NCBI RefSeq assembly: GCF_026151205.1
Contig: NC_087078.1
Location: 2,942,175 to 3,006,174 of the forward strand
Reading direction: 5' to 3'
DNA: 64,000 bases
From: Bolinopsis microptera
Lineage: Eukaryota > Ctenophora > Tentaculata > Lobata > Bolinopsidae
Part shown: piece by piece, positions 2,177-38,000 of the stretch
How positions within the stretch are numbered: the stretch's first letter is position 1
Layout: every line of letters starts with the position of its first letter
Notes under the pieces: model-generated
What the model saw: the letters and a program-made list of their open reading frames with translations, nothing else
Database searches by the model: none
What the model was told of the DNA's origin: nothing
Made by a program: the position numbers and the translations under genes

Positions 2177-2235
<59 letters not shown>

Positions 2236-5200: not shown

Positions 5201-7700
5201 CGGGGCCCTCCCAGGGGCCCCCGCCCCTCCCAAAATGAAACCCAAATCCAGCTAAAATCCAGAAATTTAAAATCTTTTCCCCTGTAGTGCTTTTATGTTT
5301 CCGGGGAGGTGGAGACATTTTTTTTGTTTTTAAAAAGGGTTCTTTCCTGTCCCCCCCCCATCATAAAAAAAACAAGTTTTTTTACCCTCTCAACCCCCCC
5401 GGCCACCCCAGGGCCACGCCCAACCCCAAAATGACCGAAATCCCGCTAAATCCAGAAATTTTAAAATTTTTTTCCCCGTAATGCCCTTTTTTTTCCGGGT
5501 AAAATGGGACATTTTTTAGTTTTAAAAAATTGTTCCCGCCCCGTCCCCAAAACCCTCATAAAAATCAGTTTCGACCTCTCAACCCACTCCCGGGCCCCCC
5601 CAGGGCCCAAAGCCCCTCCCAAAAAAGACCAAATCCACTAAAATCGAGACTTTTTAAAAACTTTACCCCCGGTTTGTTTCTTTTATTTTTCCGGGGTTTT
5701 TTGGGGGGGCATGGGTTTTTGGGTTTTAAAAATGGGGTTTCCCGCCCGTCCCCCAAAACCCCAAAAAAAACCAAGTTTTTTGACCTCTCCCCCACTCGGG
5801 CCACTCCCCCCGGGGCCACGGGCCCCTCCCAAAATACCGAAATCCAGCAAAAACCAGACTTTAAAAAACTTTACCCCCGGGAAGTGCTTTTTATGTTTTT
5901 TGGGGGAGGTGGACATTTTTAGTTTTAAAAAAGGGGTTTTCCTGCCCAAACCCTCCCTAAAAATCAAGTTTTTCCGGGCCTCTCAAAACCCACTCGGGGC
6001 CCCCCCAGGGGCCCCCCCCACCCAAAAGAAACCCAAATCCAGCTAAATCCAGGGCTTAAAATCTTTACCCCCCGTATGCTTTTAATTTTTCCCGGGTAGG
6101 GGGACATGTTTTTTGTTTTTTAAAAAGGTTTTCTGCCGTCCCAAACCTTTATAAAAACAAGTTTTCCCCCTCTCAAACCCCCTCGGGCCACTCCCCCGGG
6201 GCCACGCCCTTTCCCCAAAAAGACCCAAATCCCCCTAAAAACCAGACTTTAAAACTTAAACCCCCGTATACCCCCCTTTTTGTTTCCGGGTTTGGTGGGA
6301 CATGTTTTAGTTTTAAAAAAGGGGCCCGGGCCCGTCCCCAAAACCCTCATAAAAAACAAGTTTTTGGGCCCTCCCAAAACCCCCTCGGGGGGCCCCTTTC
6401 CCCGGGGGCCCCCCCTTTCCCAAAAAAAGAAACCCAAATCCAGCTAAAATTTCCCGACTTTAAAAAACTTACCCCCCCTAGTGCTTTTTTTTCCGGGGGA
6501 GTGGGACAATTTTTAGTTTAAAAATTGGGTTTCTGCCTGCCCAAAAACCCCATAAAAATCAATTTTTTTACCTCCCCCAACCCACTTTTGGGGCCAAATC
6601 CCCGGGGCCCACGCCCATCCCAAAATTACCGAAATCCACAAATCCAGACTTTTAAAACTTTAAACCCCCGTAGTGGGTTTTATGTTCCCGGGGGAGGTTT
6701 TTGGGGTATTTTTAGTTTTTAAAAAAGGGTTTCTGGCCCGTCCCCCCCCATCATAAAAATCAAAATTTTGGGCCTCTCAACCCACTCGGGCCACTCCCGG
6801 GGCCCCCGCCCATCCCAAAATGACCGAAATTCCCCGCTAAAACCAACTTTTAAAAAACTTTACCCCCCCCCGTAGGCTTTTATGTTCCGGGGTAGGTTGG
6901 GGCATGTTTTTAGTTTAAAAAAGGGTTCTGCCTGCCCCCCCCACATAAAAAAACAAAATTTCCCAACCCTCCCCCAAAAAACCCCCGGGCCAAAAAACCC
7001 CCAGGGGGCCACCCCCCCCCCCCCCCCAAAAGGAAACCCAAATCCCGCTAAAATTCCCGACTTTTTTAAAACTTTTAAACCCCCCCGGGGAGTGCTTTTA
7101 TGTTCCCCCGGGGTAGGGGGGACATGTTTTAGTTTAAAAAAGGGTTTCCGGCCCCGCCCAAACCAACATAAAAATCAAGTTTCGGAAAAACTTCAACCCA
7201 ACGGCCCCCTTTCCCCGGGGCCCCGCCCCTCCCAAAATTTAAAACCCAAATCCGGGTAAAAAAATTTTCCCTTTTTTAAAACTTTAAAAACCCCTGTAGT
7301 CTTTTATTTTTCCGGGGGAGGGACCCTGTTTTAGTTTAAAAAAAAGGGTTCTGCCTGTCCCAAACCATCAAAAAAATCAAGTTTCGGTTCCTAAAAACCC
7401 CAAAAACCCACCCGGGGCCCCCTCCCAGGGGCCACGCCCATCCCAAAATGACAGAAAAACCCCCTAAATCCAGAAATTTTTAAAAACTTTTAAACCCCCC
7501 CCCCCGTAGCGCTTTTAAAAGTTCCGGGGTAGGTGGGGGCCAAAGTTTTTTGGTTTTAAAAAAGGGTTCTGCCTGTCCCCCCCCAACTAAAAATCAAATT
7601 TTCGAAACCTCCCAAACCCCCTCGGGCCACTCCCCGGGGGCCCCGCCCCTCCCAAAATTTTTCTTTAAAACCAGGTTTTATTTTTCGGGGGAAAAACAAA
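1..7700 (-). repeat. Tandem satellite (about 185-bp unit), very poor consensus
   Basis: About 40 head-to-tail copies of one unit. Recognisable landmarks recur in order every 185-210 bp: GTAGTGCTTTTATGTTCCGG, then GGTGGGACATGTTTTAGTTT, then CCTGTCCCAAACC, then CAAGTTTCGACC, then CCACGCCCATCCC. The same unit is present cleanly, in the opposite orientation, at 10,491-11,025. Almost every copy here is corrupted in one style: short motifs are replaced by runs of C, A, G or T. That is the look of an uncorrected or over-collapsed long-read consensus at a contig end, not of natural divergence. All open frames in this stretch are artefacts of the low-complexity sequence; I see no gene. Confidence 0.85.
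2177..2255. repeat. Poly-A-rich tract inside the degraded satellite
   Basis: An almost pure A run broken by a few G and C bases. It sits where the GCCCATCCC part of the satellite unit should continue, so it is probably a consensus failure rather than a genomic poly-A. Confidence 0.5.
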
Positions 7701-14072: not shown

Positions 14073-17000
14073 GTACGTATTTTAATCATGATAATGGTAT
14101 CTTACAGTGCTTTCAATTATCAAATTGTGTCAATAATGTTACATTTTGATAATTTACTGAGAAACTCAGGCAACGATGTTGACCATACCTTCATACTTAT
14201 TGCCTGTAAGTGAATTGTGATACAGCCTTTTTCGCTAAACTTTTCTTAATGTCTTCTCCGGCTACCCTACCTATTCTAAGATAATATTTAGGGTGTATCT
14301 AACTTAATGTTTCAGCTTACTTTGTATTATCACCTCTTCTTGGGCTTCTATTTTTGGCTAATCTCTTCCAATTAAAATTGTTGCTTCTAATGATTTATCT
14401 CTAAAAAGTGAGAAATATTTCTCTCAACCTCATCATCCTCAAAAGTCAATGTTAAGGGTTCTTACTTCTTTGCAAATAAGACGATGTATTCAAAGAAGAT
14501 CAAACAACCGTGATAACTTTGAAATTTTGAGCGAAGGTAGCCATAAGTAGCAAAACATTAAAACAAGAACATGTAAAGCTTAGCGAACGTTTATATTCTA
14601 TTGATAAATCAGTTTGTTTATTTTGTTTTTCATTAAAATCGAATTAAAATTAATTTCCTCACTCTTCGTTACAGAGACTGAAGTCTAAAATGTCGTTCAC
14701 TGAGCTTTTTAACTCGTTGAAAATAATGTTACGACTCTGCGTCCAATCCTCCGCCTCTTTCGATTAAACTTCACCGAGAATTTACCCGTCAGCATTTTCG
14801 TGTATCCAGCAAAACTCTTAATAGTCAGGAGGTATATCAGAGGATTGACCATAAAGTTGACGTTAGCAGCCTGAAGCGAGAACCGGAACAAGGCACTGAA
14901 CCAGTAAGCTGATTTAGCGTCCTCGTCCAGCACTTCCTCCAGGAGATAGAACACACCTGTTGGCAGATAGGATAGAACAAAAGCTGCTGAGATTGCCATC
15001 AGTGTTATCACAGCCTGTCTGTGAATACCCCTAACTTTAGCAACGTAACAAATTATCCAGACAGTGGTAACCAGGATCACCAGCAGTGGTACTAGAAAGA
15101 AAATGATGGCCACCATTGGTGCGACTATACGTAGGGGACCTTTCTGGTAGAACTCTGTGAAGCATTTGAAGGAGGCTGAGGAGTACACTACGGTGAAGTT
15201 TCCTGGAATCAGAGCTGCTGCTAGGGTGACGGTTATAAACACCATCATCAGGATCCAGATACCATAGGAGATATGTCTCCCTCTCCGATACCGTCTCATG
15301 TTGGAGTGCAGCGGGAATATGAGTGAGCTTAGCTTGCTGGCCATGAGTGCACTTAGGAAGATACAGCTTGTCCCCATTAAGAAATGTGAGAGGGTAGAGA
15401 GGATGTAGCAAGCCAGATCTCCGTAAACATTTGTCTGTGTGATGATGAGAACGGGGGTTGTCATGATGTAGAGACCGTAAACCAGATCTGATGCAGCTAG
15501 ATTCCTGATCAGGATTATAGATATCCGGTCTAGTCGTATTGCGTTGTACCTGATAGAGGACACCAGGATGAAGGTGTTACCTGTCACCGCGATGAGAGCC
15601 ACTACCAGGGTCCAGGTCACCAGGACTGCTTGTTCAGGGGTCGTTAGGGGGTGGTGGAACCAGAATGAGGCATCAGAAGGGAGGTGGTTCGCCTGAGTGG
15701 TATCCTCCATTTGGAATGCTGTACTGAACAAGTTAGGAATATGGCTCCGGAATACTGTCGTGTTGTTGCCTTCCATTCTGTAAAGTAGATTTGTATTATT
15801 TTGGATTGAAATATGGAAATAAATCATTACCTTTGTAATGATAGAAGAACATAATCTTTCACAAACAGAAGATACAAGAAAGTAAAAATTGTTATCGAAT
15901 GTAACATAGAACTTTGAAAAAAAATTGCCCATGAAATTATAAACTGCTTGGGGGGGGGGGGGGGGGGGGGGGGGGGGTCATGACTATTTTTGATAGTCCC
16001 GACGAAAATGCAAAATTCTCATTCTTGAGTATTTTTGAGGAAAGTTTCCTGGAGAGGCAAAAACTCATTCTCTAAAATTGATTTCGAGTATTTTTGGACC
16101 ACATTGCACTGATATGAAGAATGATTTGGTATCACTATTTTTGAGTGGACAATTTTTGAATAAATGAGAAATCCATGCTGAATTTCTCAGATTCAAAAAT
16201 AATTTTTGAGACATTTTTGAGTATTCCTGGCGAAAATGGTCAAATTCTCAGATTAACAAGAATTGCGCCCGTTGTTTCGTTTTGGCGGACGCTAGATTTC
16301 CATTTCACATTTACTATAAATTTAAGTATAAGCTCCAATCAGCTCACTTCAATCTTCATGATAATAATATTGATAAATTATCCATCAAATACGGGAAACA
16401 CTTGAAATTCAGTTCCATTGCCGTAGAACTTAACTTGTATCTGTAATTCAAGAAATTATCAGCAAAGGTAAACTATACTCGTGTACACATCAATACACTA
16501 CGCGTGCCACGTACAAATTGGCCGTATTACCTAATAGTAATATTATACATTACATGCATCATATACATTAAAACACAATCGCGCCGCGCATTCATAGATC
16601 ACAGGCTATCTATACATCACATCTCCGCAAGCAATCCTCGCGCGCGCCCAACTTTTTCGTTGCATGGTAACGAACGGAAGGAAGGACACACGACATATTT
16701 AAACCCACATCCTGAAAAATCCTGAACATTTACATACAGCTCAGGAAATATTTTCCGATTGCAATATAGATATCAGAATAGATGGTCAAAGGCATTTAGG
16801 AGCTGTGCTGGGGACGCCTGAATTCAAGGATACCTACATTAACAACCTTGTAGTTGAGTGGAGTGATATGCTAAAAAAGTTAGTACAGTTTGCCAAATCA
16901 CAGCCTCAGGCAGCCTATGCTTGTTTTACGCACGGTGTCCGCCACAAATTTACATATTTTATGAGGACATTATATATCAGCTCTTATATGGGCCCTCTTG

Positions 17001-20000
17001 ACAAAATAATCACTCATGAGCTTATTCCAACTATATTTGGTTGTCCAGTATCTCCTATACACCGAGAGCTTATGTCATTACCATTAAAGAACGGAGGTAT
17101 GGGAATGCCACAGTTGGAGTATCTAGCGAAAAGAGAACATGCTGCATCGCTTTTGGTAACCCGGGGACTGGTAAATTCCATGAAAGGAAAATCTCTTGCT
17201 ACAACTGACACGGAATCGAGAGATGAGCTTCAAGATATGTTAAAACAGCGTGTTTTGGAATATAAAGAACAACAAGAGGAGATACTTAAAAAGGTTGACA
17301 AGAAGACTGCAAGGGTTTTGGAGCAGATTAGCGAACCAGGGAGCTCAAATTGGCTCTCATGTCTACCACTAAGAAAACATGGTTTCGTTCTAAATAAATC
17401 TGAATTTAGGGATTCTATCAGATTGCGGTATAACTTAGATCTGGATCGTTTACCTTCACACTGTCCATGTGGAAAAACGTTTGATGTGAACCATTCTCTA
17501 AATTGCCATCTTGGTGGCTACATCATTATCAGACACAACGAGATTAGGGATTTTTTAGCTGGCTTGCTGAAGAGTGTTTGCTCGGACGTGGAAGTTGAAC
17601 CTCAGCTTCAAGAACTAGAAGGAGAGCAGTTCACGAGGTCATCAACACTTACGGGTGACCAGGCAAGACCCGATATAAGAGCTCGTGGTTTCTATAGGCC
17701 GGGCCAAATGGCTTTTTTCGATGTTAAGGTAATTAATCCTAATTCTAATTCCTACCTTCAACATTCGACAAAGAAGACCATGGAGAACGCCGAGAAACAG
17801 AAATCACGATGCTACAATGAGAGAATACTTAATGTAGAGCACGGATCATTCGCTCCATTAATTTATTCTGGTGGCATGGGACCCCAAGCCAGGACATTTG
17901 AAAAACTGCTTTGCAACAAACTTGCTTATAAGAAAAAGCAGAATTACAACGATATTATAAATTTTTATCGGTGTAAATTATCTTTTTTAATTAGGAAATT
18001 AATTTTATTGTGTATTAGAGGATCAAGAAATACCTCAAACAAAACTTACGAATTATCTAACATGGATGATTTAGAATTTAACTCTTTCGAATCGAAAGTC
18101 AACTAATTTTTTCAGTCCCATGGACTGGGTTTTATTTTTGCAATGATGATTTTCATAATATATAACCTCTGGTGGCAAGAGATTATTTGGTGGCAAGAGA
18201 TTATTTTTAATCTCAGGGAATAGTGATCGTGTCACCTATAACCTCTCCTATTCCAATGACCATAGTGCGTGATGAAGAATCACATCCTTTTCGAGGTGCT
18301 ACTATTAAGCTTTGTAATCTGTCCTGGGTGACTCCAGTTTAAACAGATGACGTGCAACAAAACACTATGGATCTAGACAGGCAAAGGTCGATAAAAAACC
18401 GGGTGCGAGATGCTGGCAACTTTTCCTCTCTAAACATTTGCTGCAGAAACATCACAAAGTAACAACAAGAAACGGTGTGTGGCTCCCTCTGCAAGGACGG
18501 ATGATACCAGTATGAAGGTGGCGGGGCAAAGCCTAAGGGACCCCCGTGGCCAGATGAGTGTTGGGAGAACACGTCATTGTAGCAGATTTATTTCTCCACA
18601 GATCATCCATGTGGACTCCGACTCTAATAAGAAACAGCCAGCGAATTATTCTAAAACAGGTCTTACATTTGGGACATGGAATGTATTATCTCTGACAAGT
18701 AGTTCAAGTCAGTTGTTCCAGCTATCAGAGAATATCTCTGAGTATAAGTTGGACTTGCTGGGTATAACTGAGACCCATATGCCTGGTACAGGATCAGAGC
18801 TACTGGATAATGGCTCCTTACTTATTTATTCAGGGAGGACGGACGGTATAAGAAGGCGAGGTGTCGGTCTTACCCTTTCAAAGAGGACTAAAAATTCATT
18901 AATTTCCTATCTACCAATATCTGACCGTTTGTTGAGTGCAAGGCTGCATAGTCAACACCTGAACATCTCTGTTGTTGTGGCATATGCGCCAACTGAGGGG
19001 GCTTCAGATAATGATAAGGATGAATTCTACCAGCAGTTGTCAAGTGCATTCGATGAGCTACCCCGACATGATTTAAAATTACTGCTCGGTGATCTTAATG
19101 CTAAGGTCACATCGGACTGCAGTTCTATGTCAGGTGTCATTGGTGGACACTCGCTTCACAGCTCATCAAATGACAATGGTACCCGATTGTTGGACTTTTG
19201 CATTGCCCACCAACTTACCATCGGGGGCACTATGTTTCAGCAAAAGGATATACATAAAGGTACGTGGAGATCACCTGATGGTCGTACTGTAAACCAAATA
19301 GACCACATCTGTATCAGTAAGAAGTTTGGAGGCTCCTTGCTAAATGTAAAAGTTTGTAGGGGGGCTGACATTGGGTCTGATCACTATTTGGTAAGAGCAC
19401 GACTGAGAATGAAGCTTATGTCAGTGAAAAAGAAGCAGGAACGTAAGCTTGAGATTCCTGCTATTGAGCATCTGCGTGATCATTCACTTGTTTCCGAATA
19501 CAATATTGTTCTGAGAAACAAATTTGACTGTTTGGAACCTGAGGTTGACCTGGAATCAATGTGGGACAACTTCAAGACAACTGTCCAACAAGTTTCCATG
19601 GAAATCCTTGGGCAAAGACCTCGAAAAAAGAAGGACAGGCACCAATCTCAGAAGACAAAAGAATTATTGAAGAACCGTAAGGAATTTAAGCGTAAAGACC
19701 CTAATTCGAACGCTAACAGGTCAGAGTATTCTAGATTGAATAAGCTCTTTAAAAAAAGTAGCAAGGTGGACGATAACAACTGGGCACGTAGAATGGCCAA
19801 TGACTTGGAAGAAGCTGCGAGAAAAGGTCAGCAACGTGAGGTATGGCAGAAGATCAATGTCATATCTGGAAAGAAGAAGAAGCAGTCAACTGCAGTTAGA
19901 GACGTATCTGGCCAGTTGATTGCCGACCCACATGCCCAGAAAGAAAGGTGGAAAGAGCACTTCTCTAGGCTATTGAACCCTCCCCCGCAAGAGGCCAATA

Positions 20001-23000
20001 TTTCTGACCTAGACAACATCCCTCCGCAACCCAGTTTTGACGACCTTTCCGATTCGGATGAAGCTCCTACAAGAAACGAGATTGTTGATGCCCTCAAAAA
20101 ACTCAAGAATCACAAAAGTCCAGGAGTGGATGGTATCACCAACGAGCAACTTAAGTATGGACAGGATGGGTTGGTCGATCAACTAGTTGTGTTGTTCAAG
20201 AAAGTGTGGGAAGATGAGAAGATTCCTGAGGATTGGTCCAAAGGTGTTATTATCATCGTTGGAAAGAAAGGTGACACCTCTCATTGCGCTAACAACAGAG
20301 GCATTACATTAAGATCCACAGCCTCGAAGCTCCTGCAGATGATACTCCTGCGGAGACTTAGCAATGGCATGGAAAGATTCCTCCGAGAAAATCAAAGTGG
20401 TTTTAGGCAGAATCGCTCATGTATTGACCAGGTTTATTCACTCCGCTGTATTATACACCAATGCATTGAGTATAATATCCCTCTGTATATTAATTTTGTT
20501 GATTTCAAAGCAGCTTTTGATTCAATTGACAGGCAGTTCATTTGGAGAAGTATGCAGCACTACGGCTTACCTGACAAGTACATTAGAATTATGAAGGCGT
20601 TCTTCACTCACACAGTTAGTGCTGTTAGGGTCAATGGAGAGGTTACAGGTTGCACAGTGGGGCTCGCGTAAAGGGCATGCTGACATTTGGTTTTTTTGCC
20701 CTTTTATGCCTCTGGCCACATCTTGGTGGTGTCAATTTGGATTAAATCGTCAATTATGACTTATTTCAGTGAAATTGGACAACTTTCACTACTTTTTTGG
20801 GCAAAAAATCAATTTTTTCGAAAATTTGGCACTTTCTGTCACACAAAAAGCATCTTTTTCGACTAGCAGTTTTAAGATTTCATCGAATTTTAAGCGGTTT
20901 CTGTCCCATTTTTCTGCTTTTTCGTATGGAAATGGTCATCAATCATGCTGATGTGATTGTTTAAGGGTATTTCAGAAAGGAGAACCATAAAAACTATGCA
21001 ATATGACAAAAACATAAGAAAAATCCTATGAAATCAGAGTTGCCCCTGGATTTTCCGAGCTCAAATTGCCAGATTTTGGCTATTTTTGGCTCATATGCAC
21101 TATTTTTCCATCCAAATATTGCTTATTCCAATTGAACTTTGCTGGTATTAGCATAAAATATCGAAGTGTGCACCAAAAAGCTATGAAATAAATGAAAAAA
21201 TCAGTTTTTAATCTATCAGTTTTCATTTTTCGCGCTATTTTGACGCGATTTTTCACCTCAGGCTCGTACCAAAAATGGGTCATAATTTTTTTTCCGAAGC
21301 GTTCCGAAGCCAAATCTTCTGGGTTCTGCTAGAAAAATTATGGGAAAACATAGAAAACATAATGAAACCCGGGCCATATGGGGCCATTTATAACTTTACC
21401 ACCCATTTGTGGTCAGCGAATGAAATTTTAAGGCCTATTTTTGAAAAATATTCTAATTTTAGCTACCAAAAATCCAAAATTGACCGAAATCATGGTTTTT
21501 TCTTCTTAAACAGTACTAAGAATGCTTATATCCATGTTCAATCAATCAAAAGTTGAAAAACATTGAAAACAAAAGGAACCTCAGCCTGACTCAAAAATGG
21601 CAGTGAAATTGAGTTTCTGGGCATGTGCAGGCAGGTTATTTTCAGGCGCGCTTTTCAAATGGTTGTAAATTTTGACCCAACCGAGATATTGAGCTAATTT
21701 AAAAAGCATTGAATCCGGTTATTTATTCTCTATCAGAATTTACAACAATCTAAAACATTAGGAAAACTCGTTTTTAGGCTAAATGTCAGCATGGAGCCCC
21801 ACTGTGGGTTGGTTTGATGTCAACTCGGGTACTGGGCAAGGTGATATACAGGGACCACCAGTCTTCAACTTTTGTTTGAATTTTTCGGCATACCTTATGG
21901 AACTGAACAAGGTCATTAGCAAAGGGGCTTTATTACAGCTGCCAGCCCCCGGGGTAGAAGAGAAACATCTTTTGGACACTGATTACGCTGATGACATGGC
22001 TATGTTAGATAACTCAAAAGAGGGGCTGCAGGAAACCACTGACCTTCTCTGCAAATACAGTGCCTATGCGGGTCTGAAGATTAATGCTGGCAAGACACAG
22101 AGCATGGTTGTCAGCAAAAGTGCATCGCAGAGGCCGTATTCTAAAGACGACACTATGGACATCAATGTGGAAGGTCTCCCAATACAGCAGGTCAGCAATT
22201 TCACTTACTTGGGTGCAATCATCAGTGCGAATGGAACAATTGACAAAGAATTTTCAGCTCGAATTCAAAAGGCCTCTGGGGCATTCTATCAGCTCAGCAG
22301 TATATGGTACAGTCGCAACATCAAGACTCCAACGAAAATCAGGATTTACAAAGCGGCTGTTCTCACTATACTGCTTTATGGAAGTGAGGTATGGAATACC
22401 ACACAGACGCAGATGAAAAGATTTGAGGTGTTCCATCATAGATGTCTCAGGAGAATCCTGAAAATAAAATGGTTTTATCATGTATCTAATGCTGATGTAC
22501 TTAAGCGGGCTAACATCGCCCCTGTTGATACTTTCGTACGAGCAGCTAGACTCCGATGGTTTGGCCATGTGGTGAGGATGCCAGAAGAAAGAATACCCAA
22601 CTATCTTCTGCACTGGATCCCAAAGCATGGTAAAAGGTCAAGAGGTAGACCTCGGAAAAACTGGTTGTCATGTGTCCGGGAGGATGCAGCGATCTTCACA
22701 GGTGTCGATAACATCACGATAGAAGATGCAGAACAACAAGCTACAGACAGGGTTCACTGGAGAGGTCTAATACACCGGAGAAAGGAGTTACTTTGTGGTG
22801 CAGGCCACTCCAACGACTAGGAGGAGACCTTTTCAAGTACAAGTACAAGTATAACCTGTAATACTATTTTGTATATATTTAATTTCGTTTTCCAAAAAAA
22901 ACCTATCTCGTTCTCCAAAATCCACGTTTTTCTGCAAAAACCTCCATTCGTAACCTTTCACTATTGCCTTTTTTCAAAAGGGTGAAAAGGAAAAAATTCT

Positions 23001-26000
23001 CAAAAGTACTCATGACGTATCAGTTGAATTGCAGGCGGTGGCAAAGCTCCAGCACACTGCTTACATTACTTCGACTCTTACATTACTTCGACCAGTTCCA
23101 GAACTTGTCTTGACGGTTATATTTGTCCGGTAAATTTTGTCATAGCAATTGCCCTGTTTGATATGAGCCATGTATTATAGTCGTCTACTTTGATGAACTT
23201 CATGACACGATATCAACTCCACCTTTTTCCGCTTGCCAGGCTTAACTCGACGCCCCTTATTGATATTCATTCAACGTTCGGACTGACGAACTATGTATAA
23301 ATAGAACGCCAATTTCAAATGTCATAGTACCTTAGTTTTATTTATCTAGTAGTATAATATACGTCCCAATTCCATTTCATATTTTCCATACTGATCTCAT
23401 ATAGCTAGAATGAAAGGTAAATATTAAAATGAATTAGCCCTAGCACTTAGCAACACCCGGAGGAGTTTATAACACAAAACCCCGGCACGCTTAAGGATGT
23501 ATTGAAATAACCTCTCGTGCTAAAGCACGTCGGCGATATTTTTATGAACGGTAAGTTTTTGATCAAATGCGACCTTTTTAATATGTACGGCGTTTTGAAA
23601 CAATAGAAGTTGTTCTGCAGTCGATAAAACCTCGATATAATGAACAAATGCACCCTCGTGATGCCAGATTGTAACTAATCATCATCTTGCGGCCTCTGTG
23701 TATCGTAATATCACGCACTACTCATACAAAATAACTGTGCAAAAAGATCCAATCACACCTTTTTAGAGCGGGTTCACAGGGTTTGGATAAAAGTCGAAGA
23801 TGTAGTTCAAGTCAATTCCATCATTCGTGGTTAATTTGAGAATCTGAGAATCTGATCACGTCACTGATTGAGAACCTGTTAATGTATGGGAAATCTGCAG
23901 TCTTAAATTAGTCTGTAAGACATCTTCTTTCCTTCTAACGTCACCTAGATAACGGTCGAGAATTTAGTTAAAGTCCATCACATAGGCCATTTTAATCCGC
24001 AGTCTTAAATTAGTCTGCGAGAAATCTACTTTAATCACTGTATTGGTTAGATCAGAGTGCAATTTCTTAATTATCTTTATCGCCTATAGTAACTTAGTAT
24101 GGGCTTTGATAGTTCTATGAGGCAAACCATACGAATTAAATAATGTGCCCTGAGCTCTCAATGCCAGATTAGAAGTTAAGTCAGCTGGTCAGATTAAGAA
24201 GTTAATCAAAGATAATTAAGTTCTTCAGTCTTTAAACTCTTTGAGTTGAAATAATAAAAGCCTGAAATGAGGCTGTTTCAGGAGGACCTGGACTCAGAAG
24301 GCGAGGAGCGCACGAAAAAGAAACCCAGTAAATTTAAAGACGATCTTAAGCTTAAGAAAAAATTCAATGCCCTCCTACGAAAGATGAAGCTGAATGATAC
24401 GGACGAACCTATGATCGATGATGAGGTCGGTTTTGTAAGTTTGATAATATTATTATTTACTGACATCTTGAATAACCTGTAACTAATACAGGTAGCTTAT
24501 AATCATCTAATTGAACAAGACGTCTAGTTGTTAGCATTCAATTTATGGATATCACGTTTAAATAAAGTTACCCAATGATAGTCCTTTTAAAGGAACAGAC
24601 CCAAATGATAGTCATGTCGATTTAATTAATCAAAAACATAAGTTTGATCAAACAAAGATCCATTTACCAATGAGCAAGGTACACCATATTATAAATCATA
24701 CGGCATATCCGATATCGTTCATATAGTGTAAACCCACGAGCCACCTCTACCATATACCCCCGAGAATTATTATTTACATAATATTGTAATAGAATAAATC
24801 ACAACACCAGATTTCTGATTTACTGGATCTTTTCTCCAGTAAATCGGTGTTTTACAGTGTCTTGTTCAGGTAACACAGCCGGACCAGTATTCTGCCACCT
24901 TCAGCTCTATCATGAGGGACGACAGTGACGACAGTGTACATAGTGACAGTGATAGTGTTGGCACCCTGCCAAAACCTCATCTTCGGTAAGTAGTAGTTCT
25001 GGCACCCTGTCAAAACCTCATCTTAGGTAAGTAGTAGTGTTGGCACCCTGCCAAAACCTCATCTTAGGTAAGTAGTAGTGTTGGCACCCTGTCAAAACCT
25101 CATCTTAGGTAAGTAGTAGTGTTGGCACCCTGCCAAAACCTCATTTTAGGTAAGTAGTAGTGTAGGGACACTGCATAAACCCCATGGTGTGGAACTGAAT
25201 TGCTTACCCTTATTATTCAATAAGGTTGATTATGAAAAACAAACTCCGTAATTTTGAAAATCCTGGCTACTGGGCTACGGAACACACCAGCTCGCAAAAT
25301 TGAACACTAAATAGCTTTAGTTGAGGTCGATACTATTTATTCAAACGAAACCCAATTTTACGCCATAGCAATATCCCGCGTTTCTTTGACGCGTTTATCT
25401 GCATTTAGAGAAACAGCAACTTTTAAGATTTAAAGTCTAGCGACTCAAAGAAATATTACAAGTACCTACCACGCGGAGAAATTAATTACATGGTTCATTA
25501 CAGTTTCCCCTCTTTATGATGTCCATAATATGAATATCCATAATATGATATATGGAAGATTGAAGTTATTTTTATAATACGTATTATTATGAAATAGAAG
25601 TGGCGAGTTTTGAGTTAAACAGTTTGTCTATGCCGACCATTATCAGATTATAAAATATTGTATATTAACACAAGTTTATTAAGTATCATATTAACAACAC
25701 ACAGGAGCTTGCATAACTGGCTCTGTCTACATGCTTGTAATAAAATAGTCTCGTCTGAAACTGGAACTGGCTTTTAAACCCACATATCAAGATGTAAATG
25801 AATGGAGCGATCCTAGCAAGCTTGTGGAGGAGGTACTGATCTCCTTTTCTTTTCCAGTATGGCCACAGCCCTTTCTGCACAGATTTCACTGCAGCATAGT
25901 CGGGACACAACCCCAGGCACAATGCATGATATGCACTCGTGTTATGCCGCTCTAATGGAAGGCTTTGTGAGTGACGTCACATCTGCCCTACAGTTTTGAG

Positions 26001-29000
26001 ATCTAATCGGGATTCGAACTCACTACCTCAGGGCCTGTAGACAAAAGGACTCAAGTGAATCAAGATATTGAGAATAGTACTAATGGGCCACTTTCCTACT
26101 TTCCAGCTTTTAGCACGTCTTATAAATCTGGATTCACAGTTTTGATTAATAAATACTGGAAGCTGATTGGTTGATCTGTCATGTGACACATGTGGTTATC
26201 CTCTACTACATATGGTTACGACTAAACTACTAGTACTGTATATTATATCAACTCTGTACACGCCCGTTAAGCAGGGTAGTAGTTTTATCCAAGGGTCTTT
26301 ACATTTCGATATGATAAGGAGTGATTCAGCTCGTCGCTCAATCTGATGTAAATAAAACGCACCATACTTATAAGTAATATTCCTCATACAGTACAATGCT
26401 GCCCTAAAATAGATATTATCGATATTTCAAAACACAATGTCATGACCCCTGTAAATCTTCAGGCCCTACTTCACTGATGACTTTCAAAACACAATGTCAT
26501 GACCCCTGTAAATCTTCAGGCCTTACTTCACTGCTGACTTTCAAAACACAATGTCATGACCCCTGTAAATCTTCAGGCCCTACTTCACTGTTGACTTTCA
26601 AAACACAATGTCATGACCCCTGTAAATCTTCAGGCCTTACTTCACTGGTGACTTTCAAAACACAATGTCATGACCCCTGTAAATCTTCAGGCCCTACTTC
26701 ACTGCTGACTTTCAAAACACAATGTCATGACCCCTGTAAATCTTCAGGCCCTACTTCACTGCTGACTTTCAAAACACAATGTCATGACCCCTGTAAATCT
26801 TCAGGCCCTACTTCACTGCTGACTTTCAAAACACAATGTCATGACCCCTGTAAATCTTCAGGCCCTACTTCACTGCTGACTTGCAAAACACAATGTCATG
26901 ACCCCTGTAAATCTTCAGGCCCTACTTCACTGCTGACTTTGACCGAGATTCAGATAAAGAAAGCAGCACCGACGAGGGTACAAGTAGCAAGAAAGCTGAC
27001 CACGAGCCTCCTAGTACTGCTACACGCAAAACATCTGAGGAAAACAGACGCGGGTAATTAAATGAGTAGTTCTAGTTTTGTTGTTAAGTAATTGTCAGTA
27101 AGGTCTGATATGCCAGGAAGTTTCATTATACGTACGAATCAAATTATATCCAAAATAATCTTCATAATTAGAATATTCATAGCCCCTAATAAAAACGAAA
27201 TCACTGAATCATGCTATGCTCTTAACAATATAAAATAAGCTTCAAGTAAGCTCGATTAGTCATCAAATACTTTTTCGGCTTCCTGTAATTGGCTGGTTGC
27301 ACTTGTGTAACAATAAGGCTGTTGGAATACTCCGAAGTAAAATAAGTGTCTTGATAAAAAAAGACCACCGCATCTCCTTCTTTTCACCACATAAGTTCAA
27401 CACAACCCCCCTCAGAAGCAGCATGCTCGGCAGCCCAGTCTCATAACATTAACCCCCCCTCAGAAGCAGCATGCTCGGCAGCCCAGTCTCATTACATTAA
27501 CCCCCCCCCCTCAGAAGCAGCATGCTCGGCAGCCCAGTCTCATTACATTAACCCTCCCCCCCCCTCAGAAGCAGCATGCTCGGCAGCCCAGTCTCATAAC
27601 ATTAACCCCCCCCCTCAGAAGTAGCATGCTCGGCAGCCCAGTCTCATTACATTAACCCCCCCTCAGAAGCAGCATGCTCGGCAGCCCAGTCTCATTACAT
27701 TAACCCCCCCTCAGAAGCAGCATGCTCGGCAGCCCAGTCTCATTACATTAACCCTCCCCCCCTCAGAAGCAGCATGCTCGGCAGCCCAGTCTCATAACAT
27801 TAACCCCCCCTCAGAAGCAGCATGCTCGGAAGCCCAGTCTCATTACATTAACCCCCCCCCCCCTCAGAAGCAGCATGCTCGGCAGCCCAGTCTCAGTACA
27901 TTAACCCCCCTCAGAAGTAGCATGCTCGGCAGCCCAGTCTCATTACATTAACCCCCCCTCAGAAGCAGCATGCTCGGCAGCCCAGTCTCATTACATTAAC
28001 CCCCCCCCCCCCCTCAGAAGCAGCATGCTCGGCAGCCCAGTCTCATTACATTAACCCCCCTCAGAAGTAGCATGCTTGGCAGCCCAGTCTCATTACATTA
28101 ACCCCCCCCCCCTCAGAAGTAGCATGCTCGGCAGCCCAGTCTCATTACATTAACCCCCCCTCAGAAGTAGCATGCTCGGCAGCCCAGTCTCATTACATTA
28201 ACCCTCTCTTCAGAAGCAGCATGCTCGGCAGCCCAGTCTCATAACATTAACCCCCCCCCCCCCTCAGAAGTAGCATGCTCGGCAGCCCAGTCTCATTACA
28301 TTAACCCCCCTCAGAAGTAGCATGCTTGGCAGCCCAGTCTCATTACATTAACCCCCCCCCCCCTCAGAAGTAGCATGCTCGGCAGCCCAGTCTCATTACA
28401 TTAACACCCCCTCAGAAGTAGCATGCTCGGCAGCCCAGTCTCATTACATTAACCCTCTCTTCAGAAGCAGCATGCTCGGCAGCCCAGTCTCATTACATTA
28501 ACCCCCCCTCCTCAGAAGTAGCATGCTCGGCAGCCCAGTCTCAGGGGCACAGCGACCCTCAACCCGGACCAGTAGTGCAGGTCCTGCTCCAGTTATAGGG
28601 GATTTGAGACAGGACGCAGTGGACGAGGAAAGCAACAGTGTGGCTAGCCCCCTGAGGCAGAGTCCTACAAGTCAGGGGAGTGCGGATGATACCAGGATGG
28701 GATCTTTTGATGTGAGTACAGTGGGGGTGGGGGGGGGGGCAGGGGGAATGTTGATATTAGTGAGGTTACTGAGTATAGTGGGGGGGGGGGGGGGGCAGGG
28801 GGAATGTTGATATTAGTGGGGTTACTGAGAACAATACGTCAAAAAGTTAGATGTTATAATTTGTGAATAACGGACAGAAGCATAAACGGTACTATATTTC
28901 ATCTCGATGACACGTGGATAGAGCACTCAGAGCAGTAAAAGATTTCCGATAAGACCTGAAACCATTATCCACTCATAATAGCATCTAACAAATGAGTCTA

Positions 29001-32000
29001 ACAGATTCGTAAAGTATTCATGGGTGTGGTGATAAGGAACAATTGCCACTCCCTCAAATTGAAATACCATGTTTTGTATCTAAATTCACTCCTGATAAAA
29101 TACCACGTTTTGTTTACCACTAAAATATTAATCCATTAAAGACACTCCCATACAAGTCTAGTCTGTACTGCTCAGTATTAACAAGACTTTCAATGACGCA
29201 CCTAACAGATTGAACGTGGAACGCAATTGCCAACATTTCTTTCAGCTCACTATTATATAAGTACACTATAAGTACAAGCGCCTCAAATTTCTAACGGCTA
29301 ACCAGCGTTTTTGGCAGCAAAGGATTCAAAAGTCAATTTCAAATGCTAATACCGAACTTAAGTTGACGCTAAGATTTGCTGAGTTCATCGTCATGTTAAC
29401 TGGAAATTGAGCAACCAGAGCCAGCTTAGCTATCCTGATCCTTGATATACTGACAAATTGGGGTGTGGTTCAGTCAAGTTAGGGGGTCCAGAAATCATCA
29501 TCAAAGATCAGCATTAGTCCTTTTAGCACTTAGTCCTTTTAGTACTTAGTCCCTTTTAGCACTTAGTCCCTTTAGCATTAGTCCTTTTGAGCACCACATG
29601 GCTTTGAGTTTGACTATTTGTATTTATAAAAATAGTCAAAATAGATTATAATCGAACTGGCCTCGCCCAGCATCTTGACAACTGTCTCCATGTTGTTCAA
29701 TCAGCCTAGTAGTATAACTATCTACAATAACCTAGATCATACAACTTAATATTCCCACTCGTGTTGTAGTAACTAAATAATAAAAAACTGGAATTTTACT
29801 ATAAAAACTTGATCTAATTCGCCACTACAGTTTACTCTGGAATAATTTGCGTAGACCGCAATTTAACCTTCAAGACAAATTACCAATTTAACGACAAAAC
29901 CAGTTCCCCGCGTGCAGGCAGAGGGTTTTAACCCCTGATTGAAGACTACGAGCATGGAAAAAGCACAGTTTTAAATGCCCTCTTAAAGGGGGGGGGGGGG
30001 GATCATGTTCCCCCCCCCCCCCCCTTTTAAATGCCCACTTAATTTTAAACCGTCACGGTTTGAAATTAAGTGGGCATTTAATTTGAATCTTGGGCGGCAC
30101 CATTTTATTATTAGAAGCTAAGTGGACTCTTGTTTGACGGGGAAACGATATGTTCAAGATACTTCACCTCACAAAAGTCAAAACTTGATATTAAATACTT
30201 AAGTCGGGACACATTATATTTATAAGCGTTTAGGGGGTTTGGTACAATTTATCTTCGTTAAATCAAAGCTGGTAAAATATCGCTATTTTCGCCACAGATT
30301 TTTGGGAATTTTTGGAATAAACATAGCGGAGAATGACTTATATCTAAATCACCAACGATGGCTCATTAACGAAACGCACACCTTCCAGACATAAAGCAAT
30401 CAAATTTCTAATGGTTCTTGAAATTTAGAGGCTACAAACCATTAATATGTACCAGGTGACTCGAGCAACAGATTCCTTTTAATAACAAAATAATTGCCAT
30501 AAGATACTTTTAAAACTATAATACAAAAGTCTTGCTATACTAGTACTACTTTTTGTCTATTTGTCTGAACTTTAATATTACGACTTTACAATTATTTATG
30601 GCAATTATTTTGTTATGAAAAACATGCACCTGGTATTTAAACACTAAAAATTTCATTGCTCTAAATGGTACTCCTGCTATGGTAAGTAGAATAAAGTGAC
30701 CTCAAACATTTTACGAAAAATGAAGGTCTGCAAATTTCTAACGTAATACGTACCGTCTAGTCAAAGTGTTTACAGCTTAACCTAAGTGCTGTTACTTCAA
30801 ATCCCCCAAATCGAAATACTTAAAAACCAAGAAATCTAAGATTTGCTACATCAGAGAGCTGAAAGAGTGATGTCAGGGTCCAATTTTAAGTAAATTTCCT
30901 TAGTCAGACGGGGTTTACGTAATGCGTGAATCATCGTGATACAGTTGTTGCAGATCTTCATTTTCCGTAAAATGTTAAAGGTCAAATGTTAAAGGTCAAT
31001 ACGATTATAACATTGACCAATGAAAATAGTGCGGTAATAGTACTGCGGTTCACAAATCCCGTTGTATGACACTCCATGGTCTTGAGCACGTTCAAGATAC
31101 ATTGAGTGCAAAATACTTTGAATTACGGCAGATTGAGGGGAATAATCGACCTCGTTAGAAACCTTAAAAGATGCAGTAAAAACTCAGTAAAGTTCATTAA
31201 CGCGTGTTGACTGAGTTAAATCTCTAGTGATTATAATTTCCAAACTAATAACTTTAATACCTCAGTTAATTAATTAATTAACACCTCAATTAACACCACC
31301 AGGATATGTCGGAGGGTCACAACATCATTGACCAGCTGGACGTTATCTTCAACAAGGGAGACACAGCCAGCCTGGCAGTACCTGAAACTATTGTCTTAGC
31401 TTACTGTAAAGATAAAAACTGCTATCATGTGAGTATGATTATGAAATGAAAATGAAAATGAAATGAGGTATTTATATCCCGCTCATATGATTAAGCAACA
31501 ACACAAGGAAGGTGGTTACTGGTTATTAACCAGTGGTTAACCATGTCAGAACGGCTAGTTGTGAGTGATATGAGCGAATGGGAATAACTTTTAAAATACT
31601 ATATACATTAAATATATATTTTGATATATAAAATATGTATTTAAATGGGCGAATAGTGCAGACTACTTGTCAACTACAATAACAGGCCACCAAATTACCA
31701 ATTAAATAATATGATAATAATCAAATTGTAGTGATAAGAAAATATTTGATTGCTCACTTCACACTTATATAAATAATCTCACACATGGTCCCCACTCCGC
31801 AAGCGTTACTGCACCTTGTTTTATTATTTCTACATATTATAAGAAGCCCAATATATAGCTAGTCTCATGCAAGCACCAAATTTACATACTTTAAAGTGCA
31901 GCTCTATGAGAGTATGAGTCTGCAATGACTGACATATTTCTGAAAAATCGAGACATTCTCGGAATATTTACGGTCGCAGTGGTATACTACAGTGCACGTT

Positions 32001-35000
32001 CTGCGTGCCTTACAAACCTCACGTTGGAACAATCCCAGAAAACACCTTCTGGGACCTGAAAATAGGAACAGGTTGCACAGAAGGTGAATAAAAAGGATAT
32101 TTTACTGTATTTTGTCCTGCATTTCCTATATAACTATATAACTAGCACCACACTACAACGGCCCACCTTGCAGTTTAACTAACGCACAATACAAAGGAAT
32201 TTAAATGGAAAGTCGTCTACAGGTTGAGACTGACCCCCACATTAACCATCGAGTTTAATTATGCTGAATGGGGCTAATAGAGCTGGTAGTGAAAGAGCAG
32301 CCATTCTACTTTGTTAATATATTCGGGAATATTGCAGTATTAGCAGCTTTCCTACTATATTATTTTATTATTATTAAGAAACTGTTTACACCATTAAAAT
32401 ATTCAAAACCCCTAAAAGAAATCAAGTCATCCTAAAATGGTGATCAGTACAGATCAAGACAGCTAGAGTTAAAATTTGTTTCTCCAAGCAACTCTATCAT
32501 CGGCTAATATCTTAAGCTTATTAAGATCATTCAAAGAGTTAAGTTTTAAACCTCTACGGGTCAAATCATTCACAATAATCTTGAACAAATTCTTACGATG
32601 CGCACCGACGCGCCCTTTACAGTTTGTTGTGACAGCAAACTTTAACGCTAATGCAGCGGGGGAGTCATCAGCACTACGCAAGATATGACCTAGGAGCTTC
32701 CACCTTGCTTTAGGGACACGATCACGATTATTTTATATATAATATTATTAAATATTACTATATTATATTATTACATCATTTAAACTGCGATTTTAATATC
32801 TTCAATCACCTCTGACCTCATTGGTTAATATAGTATTAGTAGTTCGAGAAAGTACGGAGATTTTATTATGCAATTCATGTCCATTATATTATAATACGAC
32901 TAACCTGGCTCAATTTTACCCATATTTTACGAGGTATCCAGCTCAGTAAAGAAATGATACCCGTAAGAGCAAAAAGACGAGAGCACCAGTTTGATCTTTA
33001 GAGCATTTAAAATGAAATTGCATACCTATGTTTTCTCCAATACGTTTTATGTAATTTATTGAAGTCTACGAGGTAAACGGCGACACGCAGAATTTATGGA
33101 AAGTAGTATAGTAGTATCATATTGTGCAGCATTTTAATATTCGGTCTAGGTCAAACCACTGCAAACCACTGTCCCAGAGCAGTGCTTTATTCAAAGTATT
33201 TAACAATTAGTTAGGGAGGGTATGTAATGGCGTGGGATTAGTTTAGTAAAAGCAATTTGACTTCAAGAATCACTAGTTGGAAGCCTAAACTAAAGGATTT
33301 TTATAGGTGGCAATTTTTATTTTGGCGGGAACACCCATATACGGGCCACGCCCTTTTTCAGGGTTTCGCGGTCACTCGAATTTTTGTATTTCAGCCCAGG
33401 AAGGTCTTAAAGACTATTCCGATACACCAAAATGTGCCTAATAGCCATATTTATATACAACTTATGAAGCAACATATACCTTAAAATGCTTCGTTTCGGA
33501 AATATGGCCGAAAAACGGTTTTTGGCTTGACGCAGTTCATAATTTCCGTGATTTTTGGCATTTCCACCTAGGAAGGTCGTAGAGACTATTCTGATACACT
33601 AAAATGTACATAATGGCCACATTTATATACAACTTATAAAGCAACATATACCCTAAAAGACTTATTTTCGGAAATGTGGCTGAAAAACGGATTTTTGCCG
33701 AGCGAACAATGACAATATTCACAAATGGGCTATTGGACTGTTAACTAGAAAGGTCTTAAAGACTCATGAGCAACACAGCATTTGTCACAAGATGTAAGAT
33801 GACTCACTTTGTGTCCAGAAACACCTACAAAAATTGGAGAATGATCTACTTTATTGGGCATCTCTCTTAATGGGCCAGGCCAGCAGCATATTTTTGTCTT
33901 ACGAAAGGGCAATTTTTCAAAATTACTGTTTCTTCAGTAAAGTTCAATGGGTCAGTTGCTAACAGCAAATTGTTCGCAATTGCCGACTCATGCACATCAT
34001 ATACTCAAAAACGCTCACTTTAGGAGTCGTTAATAAATAACTACTACATGATTTGTGAAAACTCCAACAATTTTTCCTTTTCACCAATTTAAATAAAATG
34101 TGTGACGTGCCAGACCAAAATTCAACTTCAAATTTTTATTTATTCATGCCATGAAACCATGATATATGTGCCAAGAATACCGGACCTAAAATAAATCGGC
34201 ACTAGATCCGGGCCAGATTGTTGCTTGACCGCTGACCAGTACCCCACTTTATAATTATGATTGATTTCGCTGCCTCGACCAATATTGGTCTGTAATTCCT
34301 GGATTGAGATCTGTTGGCCGCAGTTTAATTTAGCTAATTTCCTATAATACCGCAGTGGTTTGGTTCCCACTTCAGAATGACCCCATATTCTTTTTTTTAG
34401 TCGCATAGATTTTCCCATCGTATATGGGTGTTCCCGCCAAAATAAAAATTGCCACCTATAAAAATCCTTTAGTTTAGGCTTCCAACTAGTGATTCTTGAA
34501 GTCAAATTGCTTTTACTAAACTAATCCCACGCCATTGATATTCCTGACATATCCTCCCTAACTAAATGTATTTACATACAGTTTAAATAATTTAAATTCC
34601 TCAGCCTATAATGAAAGCGATGCTGGCATCAAACGCATGTGTCTTTCTACACACGGGCTCTGACGCAAAAGTGTTCATTTCAACTCTCGTTAACAAGATG
34701 CAGAAATGGTTGGTTTTGGAATCTCAAATATGACGAACATTTGATGATGACGCTTTACAAAATTTCAGAAATATTAAAGTTTGAAAATTGTTAAATAGCA
34801 GAAATAAAATAACATGATAATAATAAAATAATATAAAAAATAAATAACAGACCAAGTTTATAAAGCAAAACATCAAAGGAAAATAAAATTTATCCCAGCA
34901 CTCATCAACCTATCCCTAGCACTCATCAACCTATCCCTAGCACTCATCAACCTATCCCTAGCACTCATCAACCTATCCCTATCACTCATCAACCTATCCC

Positions 35001-38000
35001 TATCACTCACCAACCTATCCCTATCACTCATCAACCTATCTCTAGCACTCATCAACCTATCCCAGCACTCATCAACCTATCCCTAGCACTCATCAACCTA
35101 TCCCTAGCACTCATAGACCATGAGCAGAATTTAAAGGTGGTCGCCGCGCTGATCACGTGATAATGATCTGAGTATTTAGTGCGACCTCTGACTAACGAAC
35201 CCTTCTCCCAGTGCGACTAGACACTCTCGACTATCACCCGTTAAGTTAGCTGTAATCGGGGACCTCTCCTCAACTAACGTCATACTGAAGCCTCTAATGG
35301 ATAGCCTTAATAACAAGAGCCCAGAATGGATCCAGAACTTCCAGTTCATATTCATACCTACAGGTAATGCTTGCGTAGGATTCATACCCACAGGTAATAC
35401 ATGCGGATTGCGGAGTAAATACCACAGTCAAGGCTATAATAGTAGCTGTAGGTGTGATTATTTATTTCAATGGTCGATTGTATGAGAGATATCTTCACGG
35501 CCTTTATTTACCAATGCAAATCCGAATACATTGAACAACGAATTTAAAGAATGATGCACCGAATGTGACCATTTTTGAAATAAATTTCGTCGTCAAATTT
35601 TTAATGTAAATATTGATCGTTATAATTGAATTAATACTATTTCAGAATATGACGTCAAAATGTCGATACGTTATTCATCTATTTATTTCCATTAGAATTT
35701 GTCATCACTGAGTCTATTCAAAAACGATCAGAAATTTGAATGAAAGAACTATCAAATCATGAGACTCTATAACAATACATAGAGAGTTTATAGAGGTTTT
35801 ATAGAGGTTTTATAGAGGTTTTATAGAGGTTTTATAGAGGTTTTATAGTGGTTTTATAGAGGTTTTACAGAGGTTTTATAGAGGTTTTATAAAGGTTTTA
35901 TAGAGGTTTTATAGAGGTTTTATAGAGGTCTTATAGAGGTTTTATAGAGGTCTTATAGAGGTTTTATAGAGGTTTTATAGAGGTTTTATAGAGGTTTTAT
36001 AGAGGTTTTACAGAGGTTTTATAGAGGTTTTATAGAGGTTTTATAGAGGTTTTATAGAGGTTTTATAGAGGTTTTATAGTGGTTTTATAGAGGTTTTATA
36101 GAGGTTTTATAGAGGTTTTATAGAGGTTTTATAGAGGTTTTATAGAGGTTTTATAGAGGTTTTATAGAGGATTTATAAAGGTTTTATAGAGGTTTATAGA
36201 GGTTTTATAGAGGTTTTATAGAGGTTTTATAGAGGTTTTATAGAGGTTTTATAGAGGTTTTATAGAGGTTTTATAAAGGTTTTATAGAGGTTTATAGAGG
36301 TTTTATAGAGGTTTTATAGAGGTTTTATAGAGGTTTTATAGTGGTTTGACTGTGATTTTTATCTACTCTAGTACAAGTACTCTCCCAGCTGTTTCGAAAT
36401 AATTTTAAACTGACAAAAAAATGGAACCACTTGATGAATTTAAACGGAATGAGTGCTATATTTAACTTCGAATGACAACTTAAATACGCAGGTGCAATAA
36501 CAATTAATAAAAATTGCTTGGTTAAATTTTTGGATTTGATTAATTCTTTAATTTTGCGTGGACACGCCGTATATTTACCGTATACTGACACTGACAGTAA
36601 AGTTACCGTCACGTATAGTGGCCGTATCTTTTCCAAACCTAAACTCTCAATTTCTACTATAGTTAACCAAAAATCATTTTTGAATAATGTGTTATTGCTA
36701 AAAAAGGAAGCTGAACAAAAACCAGAACATAAAAAATATAGAAAAATACGAAAAGATTTAAAGATTCAATATTGTTAACCGCGTGATTGTTCACGCGTCT
36801 CGTTGTGTTCACGCGCTTCACTTCACACGTGATGTCTAGCCCCATACTTAACTTTAATTGACCAGTTTTTGCACAAGAAATTTTATTTTTACTGGCGGCG
36901 GCAAGACAGCAAAGTTAATAATTTAAAAATTTTTATTTCAGCGGTACTGGTAATTTCATCAGTCGGACGATGATATATATGATGTAAATCATTTTGATTG
37001 CGATGATTCTCCAACGTTTACATATGAACATTTTCGTGGTAATCACGCCCAGATAGGTCAAAATCATAGGTACCTATGTCAATCCAAACTAAATATATTA
37101 AAATTACCTCAGATCCGAACAACCCGATATCTCGATACGTCAGCTCCGTGGACGAGTCGTACACGCGACTACTAGATTCGCTATCAGTGGAATGCGAAAC
37201 TGATGTCCTTGCTGCTTATCAGGTACACAGATCCATCACTAGGGGCCATCACTAGGGGCCATCACTAGGGGCCATCACTAGGGGCCATCACTAGGGGCTA
37301 TCACTAGGGGCCATCACTAGGGGCTATCACTAGGGGCTATCACTAGGGGCCATCACTAGGGGCTATCACTAGGGGCTATCACTAGGGGCCATCACTAGGG
37401 GCTATCACTAGGGGCCATCACTAGGGGCCTTCACTAGGGGCTATCACTAGGGGCTATCACTAGGGGCTATCACTAGGGGTCATCACTAGGGGCTATCACT
37501 AGGGGCTATCACTAGGGGCTATCACTAGTTAGGATAAACTCGCATCTAAAGTGGTAGTCTGACAACAGATACTGTTTTAATGCGGGGGGGGGGGGGGCCC
37601 TTAATGCTGTGATTATTAAAATACCTGTTTCTTCAGAGGGACGCTAAAGATATTGTAAACTTGTCCATCGGAAGAGTCTTGGTGACCCAGCTTGTGAACG
37701 AGTAAGTACTTTTATGTACATATTTTGACTCTTTCAGTCAGCTATTCCGGGAGGCTATCTGATGTAATTTTAATAATCGACCGTAAAATGCACGTTACTT
37801 AAGATCAATTTAGCTTTACTTTAATGTTACAGGACCGATGAAGACACCAAACAGTTTGAGGTGCCGTTTCTAAACTCCGTCTCGATAGTGTTCAACAGAA
37901 AGAGTTGCGTGAACTGTGCTGAGGAAGACGATCCCGAAAAGTGCAGGTTCATAATACTCAAACACAAGGATATATCTTATTCTTGATCATTTTATTGTAA

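Follow-up and report, generated by a model that had tools for sequence, protein, structure and literature searches.

The window analysed here is a stretch of 64,000 nucleotides from the ctenophore Bolinopsis microptera (assembly GCF_026151205.1, contig NC_087078.1, forward-strand positions 2,942,175 to 3,006,174), and positions are those of the window unless a contig is named. It carries a gene that is, judged from its sequence, PACS, two introns of which are bordered by three tandem arrays built from the exon–intron junction itself (Table 1). The PACS label, first given in a preliminary description made from the letters of the window, is supported by the exons downstream of the arrays. Joined by hand within 31304-37946, with one border guessed, these exons match Pfam Pacs-1 with E 4.4e-22. 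Whole-genome searches covered an assembly of 264,652,675 bases in 232 contigs (G000), and the profile search with PF10254 returned a single match in it, the window exon at 35231-35380. The peptide of the array-bearing middle region matches no Pfam family at E 1 or below. Vertebrate PACS reads STPKPKLR|PYFEG, and the borders of intron 3 agree with this sequence. Compared with PACS directly, the middle region gave weak matches (E 6-8). The agreement of the array region with PACS at KPKLR|PYF is therefore based on these weak matches together with the open frame.

Both border types are involved in PACS, with one donor array and two acceptor arrays. In the donor array, the last exon bases lie at 24985, 25026, 25067, 25108 and 25149, in steps of 41 bp. 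Each unit combines about 28 nt of exon end with about 13 nt of intron start, and the four decoy donors read AG|GTAAGT. The second array contains nine acceptors, with last intron bases from 26462 to 26918 at a spacing of exactly 57 bp; its unit joins about 35 nt of intron end to about 22 nt of exon start, and eight of the acceptors are decoys. The third array comprises 23 acceptors between 27415 and 28515, 22 of them decoys, spaced 47-55 bp apart, and its units contain a poly-C tract of varying length. The units found by splice signal (5, 9 and 23) equal those found by consensus (5, 9 and 23). The figures of the preliminary description (5 donors at 41 bp, 9 acceptors at 57 bp and 23 acceptors at about 50 bp) are thereby reproduced by unit listing and by Tandem Repeats Finder (TRF). 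Chance is not the source of arrays this long. A separate 56-bp repeat in two copies, at 28713-28833, is wholly intronic and begins at base 2 of the donor of exon 5; a comparable repeat occurs in a myosin locus (L023) at G000:C3:9157283-9157380.

The reading frame distinguishes sharply among the copies. For intron 3, only one of the 45 donor–acceptor pairings is stop-free, that of donor 1 with acceptor 9, and for intron 4 only the last of the 23 acceptors is. The earlier claim that the exon-proximal site alone keeps the frame is thus borne out, all other joints (44 of 45 and 22 of 23) containing stops. When exon 3 is taken to begin at 24870 and exons 4 and 5 to end at 27053 and 28711, joining donor 1, acceptor 9 and acceptor 23 yields a single open frame of 149 residues. 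The peptide across the canonical joints reads ...GTLPKPHLR|PYFTADFDRD...ENRRG|SSMLGSPVSG.... The authentic donor, CG|GTAAGT, retains an arginine codon. With generic weights of our own choosing, it scores 9.1 versus 11.3 for the decoys. Since the authentic donor is weaker than the decoys, site strength would not be what preserves the frame; if RNA confirms its use, position outranks strength. A further duplicated donor, in the downstream ATRHSRLSPVKLAVIGDL exon, behaves differently from the decoys of introns 3 and 4: its second copy is in frame and adds 10 amino acids without a stop. This 30-bp duplication may provide an isoform with 10 additional residues.

Table 1. Exons and arrays of the PACS gene in the window
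Feature	Position	Strand	Basis
PACS exon upstream of intron 2 (EDLDSEGEERTKKK...DDEVGF)	24282..24434	+	Read from sequence; E 18 to PACS, not significant
PACS exon 3, ending in authentic donor CG|GTAAGT	24870..24985	+	Open frame over canonical joint; weak homology at KPKLR, E 8.1
Donor array, 41 bp x 5 full units	24953..25185	+	TRF (5.7 copies) and unit listing
Acceptor array, 57 bp x 9	26425..26940	+	TRF (9.1 copies) and unit listing
PACS exon 4, authentic acceptor the ninth and last	26919..27053	+	Frame test
Acceptor array, about 50 bp x 23	27406..28543	+	TRF (22.8 copies) and unit listing
PACS exon 5, authentic acceptor the 23rd and last	28516..28711	+	Frame test
PACS exon DMSEGHNIIDQLDVIF...	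31304..31429	+	Within joined Pacs-1 peptide, E 4.4e-22; borders by eye
PACS exon ATRHSRLSPVKLAVIGDL...IPTG	35212..35363	+	PF10254 genome match; joined-peptide Pfam match
Donor of ATRHSRLSPVKLAVIGDL exon, two-copy 30-bp duplication	35334..35393	+	Frame test
PACS exon DPNNPISRYVSSVDE...LAAYQ	37117..37223	+	Joined-peptide Pfam match

Repeats of this kind could in principle be products of assembly. The locus indeed occurs twice in the assembly, and one of the two copies is noisy. The stretch 24265-28855 recurs on contig C8 (L003, G000:C8:3948000-3957900, at about 1244-5873 of the reverse complement). Over four stretches outside the arrays, comparison of this copy with the window shows 75 substitutions, of which 16 are transitions, and 131 indel runs, of which 113 involve a single base; exons and introns are affected alike. 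Its left edge interrupts a zinc-finger reading frame that is undisturbed as far as that point. An evolved paralogue was considered and ruled out by the raw-read error pattern and by the position of the edge within the clean zinc-finger frame. Most likely, to judge from these features, the C8 copy is a misplaced, uncorrected long read left by gap filling. This fits the published method of the likely source assembly, long-read gap filling with TGS-Gapcloser followed by Pilon (PMC10232365), a procedure that also speaks for an artefact. However, the raw-like copy itself holds 9 and 23 acceptor units, as in the window, and 6 donor units versus the window's 5; this donor count leaves out a seventh donor-like match, at the distance limit of 10, which is the degenerate flank. 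The arrays are therefore real, and an assembly artefact, which the preliminary description had named as one outcome that would overturn its account and which is now largely refuted, is extremely improbable. The sixth donor unit, from one raw-like copy, may represent an allele.

Similar anatomy was found in other genes of the genome. A myosin-like gene (L031) has 22 donor copies with a 40-bp unit, and only the first keeps the frame. The Myosin_head profile runs uninterrupted over the first-donor joint (53-170 of 679, E 2.1e-17), and by homology the true border of this gene is thus the outermost copy. Another exon of L031 bears an apparent two-copy donor duplication of 26 bp. In a Sushi gene (L011), 44 donors follow one another at 54 bp and only the first is open; the Sushi match spans both exons in two stretches (E 5.6e-9). 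L011 belongs to a set of 12 loci fetched with a donor word (L004-L015), 11 of them from lists of word triplets and L015 as a two-copy pair, all taken from the start of the lists and not at random. By eye, six of the 12 are border-like (L004, L006, L007, L008, L011 and L013) and six are not (L005, L009, L010, L012, L014 and L015). Only L011 among the border-like loci has a clear protein-family match. The peptides of L006, L007 and L008 have no Pfam match, that of L013 has weak ones below the cut-offs, and L004 gives a weak full-length alignment to importin-7 (E 1.3). Donor copies number 55 in L006, 5 in L013 and 4 in L004. Two of the loci that are not border-like, L010 (G000:C1:35700-39200) and L012 (G000:C1:760500-763700), share a 32-bp donor-like satellite with similar flanks. 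As an exon border this satellite was rejected, the same unit with similar flanks at two loci indicating a dispersed repeat.

Competing splice sites are familiar from NAGNAG-type tandem sites, which are few and lie a few bases apart, and from poison exons, which are conserved cassettes. As in the PACS arrays, neighbouring sites compete there and a wrong choice can cause decay, but here up to tens of near-identical copies are present. Intron gain by tandem genomic duplication of an AGGT proto-splice site likewise adds splice signals beside an exon (PMC4974935), whereas here the intron pre-exists and the copies are those of its borders. The closest likeness is to the mirages of amphioxus, tandem repeats over exon–intron borders known from Adh, globins and troponin C, and as imperfect repeats from PGBD5 (PMC3087553, PMC3902484). 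Globin mirages occur at both borders, and their reverse transcription PCR (RT-PCR) products are compatible with regular splicing (PMC3087553, PMC3902484). In the globin BflGb6, one haplotype has 6 units and another has 3 (PMC3087553, PMC3902484).

The PACS arrays resemble these mirages (Adh3, BflGb6, BflGb9, troponin C and PGBD5) in having a border-spanning unit on the donor or the acceptor side and many units with AG/GT signals. Unit number varies in amphioxus, as may be the case here with 5 versus 6 donors. They differ in their range, cephalochordate there and ctenophore here, which is not a difference of anatomy, and in their scale, with 23 units in PACS, 44 in another gene and three large arrays in one gene. 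Splicing was checked by RT-PCR in amphioxus and is predicted from the DNA sequence here. The preliminary description held that no system of this kind had been described; this does not stand, as the amphioxus mirages are of the same kind (PMC3087553, PMC3902484). We thus confirm that the PACS arrays belong to a kind already known, if little noticed, and their copies outnumber those of the amphioxus cases in the published text consulted. No report of a ctenophore mirage was found in the part of the open literature searched. By inference, the PACS arrays would extend mirages to a new phylum, Ctenophora. An ionotropic glutamate receptor exon of the genome (L018) is in keeping with a ctenophore: among the best 60 of 242 matches, it is closest to the structures of ML032222a, a Mnemiopsis protein (E 2.9e-34 to 5.5e-34), followed by a kainate-like receptor, 4zdm, also of a ctenophore (1.6e-24), and by NMDA receptors (1.7e-16 and weaker). 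A search of the genome for COX1 gave no match.

We propose, with a probability of roughly 0.8, that the PACS arrays are mirage-type minisatellites that grew by neutral slippage across the borders and are tolerated since the outermost sites are still spliced. This interpretation is based on the anatomy of the arrays, the reading frames, the raw-like copy, the like anatomy in other genes and the array-rich genome. The parts that we infer are that splicing in RNA uses the outermost sites, that the additional copies are neutral and how the arrays were seeded. Of the two explanations offered in the preliminary description, a by-product of slippage is the better supported. The seed was probably a short tandem duplication that chanced to span the border and was produced by slippage, or by end-joining, at short direct repeats. 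By eye, TAGTGT is found in PACS where the donor unit begins on the exon side and again on the intron side after the last unit, and CCTTC occupies the corresponding places in L031. Slippage and unequal exchange would then have multiplied the unit into the intron, between the exon-side and intron-side copies. The outermost copy, beside the exon body, would remain the site in use, since exon definition would couple it to the opposite end of the exon and since the alternatives give stops. Outermost-site splicing preserves the protein, and the additional copies would therefore be hidden in the intron, evolving there as neutral repeats.

The second explanation in the preliminary description was a tunable switch based on nonsense-mediated decay (NMD), in which copy number sets how often inner sites are used, and decay of the resulting transcripts with stops adjusts PACS dosage. 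The stops in 44 of 45 and 22 of 23 alternative joints, the higher scores of the decoy donors and the possible variation of unit number between alleles (5 versus 6) would all fit such a switch. However, stops arise likewise in two unrelated genes, with 1 of 22 donors open in L031 and 1 of 44 in L011, the duplicated donor at 35363 gives an open, in-frame product without a stop, and amphioxus mirages are reported not to disturb splicing (PMC3087553, PMC3902484). Hence, the part of the claim that stands is that use of a decoy would bring stops; as evidence for a switch it is weakened by the equal presence of stops in two other genes, and we regard the switch as quite improbable. An extended form is slightly less probable still: leakage into transcripts with stops would grow with every added decoy, PACS output would depend on whether an allele has 5 or 6 donors, and satellites at junctions would govern the dosage of many ctenophore genes.

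It has also been proposed, for amphioxus globins, that mirage units may shift a border or supply a new exon (PMC3087553). Applied to PACS, the arrays would be intermediates of intron gain or border sliding, in which the exonic part of a unit becomes a new exon or moves the border. Donor and acceptor borders alike have been copied, and the units combine exon sequence with a splice signal, as that model requires (PMC3087553). The units of L008 carry CAG|GTAAGT, which by sequence is usable as both acceptor and donor. Conversely, all inner copies at introns 3 and 4 of PACS run into stops, and none is usable now. We consider this possibility improbable.

Several observations weigh against the proposal of neutral slippage across borders. 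The nine units of the 57-bp array share all 35 intronic bases and differ in their exonic part only, which uniform drift alone does not explain. Arrays also occur on two sides in other loci: one exon of L007 has 3 acceptor and 42 donor copies, and in the fetched piece of L008, an apparent single intron has 12 donor-like units before it and 19 acceptor units at its end. In PACS, three of the four arrays with a period of at least 25 cover a junction (P of about 0.0004 under random placement), and three of nine do when shorter periods are included (P of about 0.003); these values are post hoc for a gene chosen for its arrays, and were computed with 19 junctions, some of them inferred. The proposal does not account for this clustering of junction arrays in PACS, L007 and L008. 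Finally, among six 8-base words of equal composition, the donor word gave the highest count of triplets (see below), so that splice sites may be modestly preferred.

The junction arrays in PACS, L007 and L008, together with the two duplicated donors in L031, would be expected if splice borders were hot spots at which minisatellites arise, for instance through breaks linked to transcription. Word counts, which are of overlapping triplets and not of arrays, bear on this directly. The donor word AGGTAAGT gave 1491 triplets at 28-58 bp spacing versus 12 for the reversed word; single occurrences were 10764 versus 7968. Likewise, ACAGGTAAGT in three copies gave 182 matches versus 0 reversed, and three copies of GGTAAGT at 40-42 bp gave 777 versus 0; among the matches listed for the latter, identical units lie at two places each. 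However, two scrambled words of the same composition and their reversals gave 1051, 159, 441 and 917 triplets. Donor-word enrichment was therefore dropped as proof of targeting: scrambled words came near, and the reversed word is a poor control. Moreover, part of the donor-word arrays are dispersed repeats, as in L010 and L012 and the units recurring at two places. The extrapolated mean per word was 265 for the window, 138 for the window minus the three arrays, 412 for myosin loci and 0 for iGluR loci, all from small samples, that of iGluR being 10 kb. Tandem arrays are frequent in this genome, in line with slippage: all six words form spaced triplets, and the window alone holds 61 overlapping TRF rows in 64 kb.

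The acceptor word TTTTCAGG in three copies gave 368 matches versus 93. Among those listed, four lie at two other places and all others fall in two related arrays on contig C3; this excess was not used as evidence of targeting, the listed matches coming nearly all from these arrays. The two are very similar 47-bp arrays with an acceptor-like TTTTCAGG on G000:C3, about 200 kb apart, one from 10522198 to at least 10525883 and the other from 10725660 to at least 10727316.

A Myosin_head search gave 73 pieces, 63 of them within fetched loci, and 42 introns with abutting profile ranges were selected by an automatic score, a few of them doubtful. None of the 84 junction 26-mers has a copy within 600 bp, versus 24 of 1195 control positions in introns and 20 of 2000 in exons; the controls were random draws with replacement, and low-complexity sites were excluded from the controls only. 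Both junction duplications of L031 sit in a pair skipped by this test. The 63 pieces have 126 edges, which were not all tested singly, and two junction-spanning duplications are thus known among them. At eight places read by eye, the arrays beside other exon pieces lie on the intron side, and in L024 and L023 the repeat begins at the donor. Together, these counts do not demonstrate genome-wide targeting of borders, and we consider hot spots at splice borders unlikely.

Mirages have so far been an amphioxus oddity in the part of the literature consulted. Border arrays of 22-44 copies in the PACS, myosin-like and Sushi genes suggest that any animal genome rich in minisatellites may carry them, and such arrays have a bearing on the annotation of genes and on models of how intron borders change. 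They are also natural experiments, with dozens of near-identical sites and an apparently correct donor that scores below its decoys, in which position and strength can be tested against each other. RNA-seq and Iso-Seq reads of Bolinopsis microptera exist (PMC10232365).

Several other features were observed. In the myosin locus L023, the neighbouring pieces G000:C3:9154012-9154203 and 9154255-9154485 match overlapping Myosin_head ranges (105-167 and 102-167) and, by sequence, are probably a tandem exon duplication. In the window, an open frame at 18434-20671 on the plus strand encodes endonuclease and reverse transcriptase domains and is therefore assigned to a non-LTR (long terminal repeat) retrotransposon, to which the open frame at 21783-22820 may also belong. 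Two identical 103-residue frames lie on opposite strands, at 46953-47264 (minus) and 48413-48724 (plus), and thus form an inverted duplication; the frame at 46953-47264 has no Pfam match up to E 0.01. A rhodopsin-type GPCR (G protein-coupled receptor) is encoded in a single open frame at 14709-15977 on the minus strand (7tm_1, E 2.4e-17).

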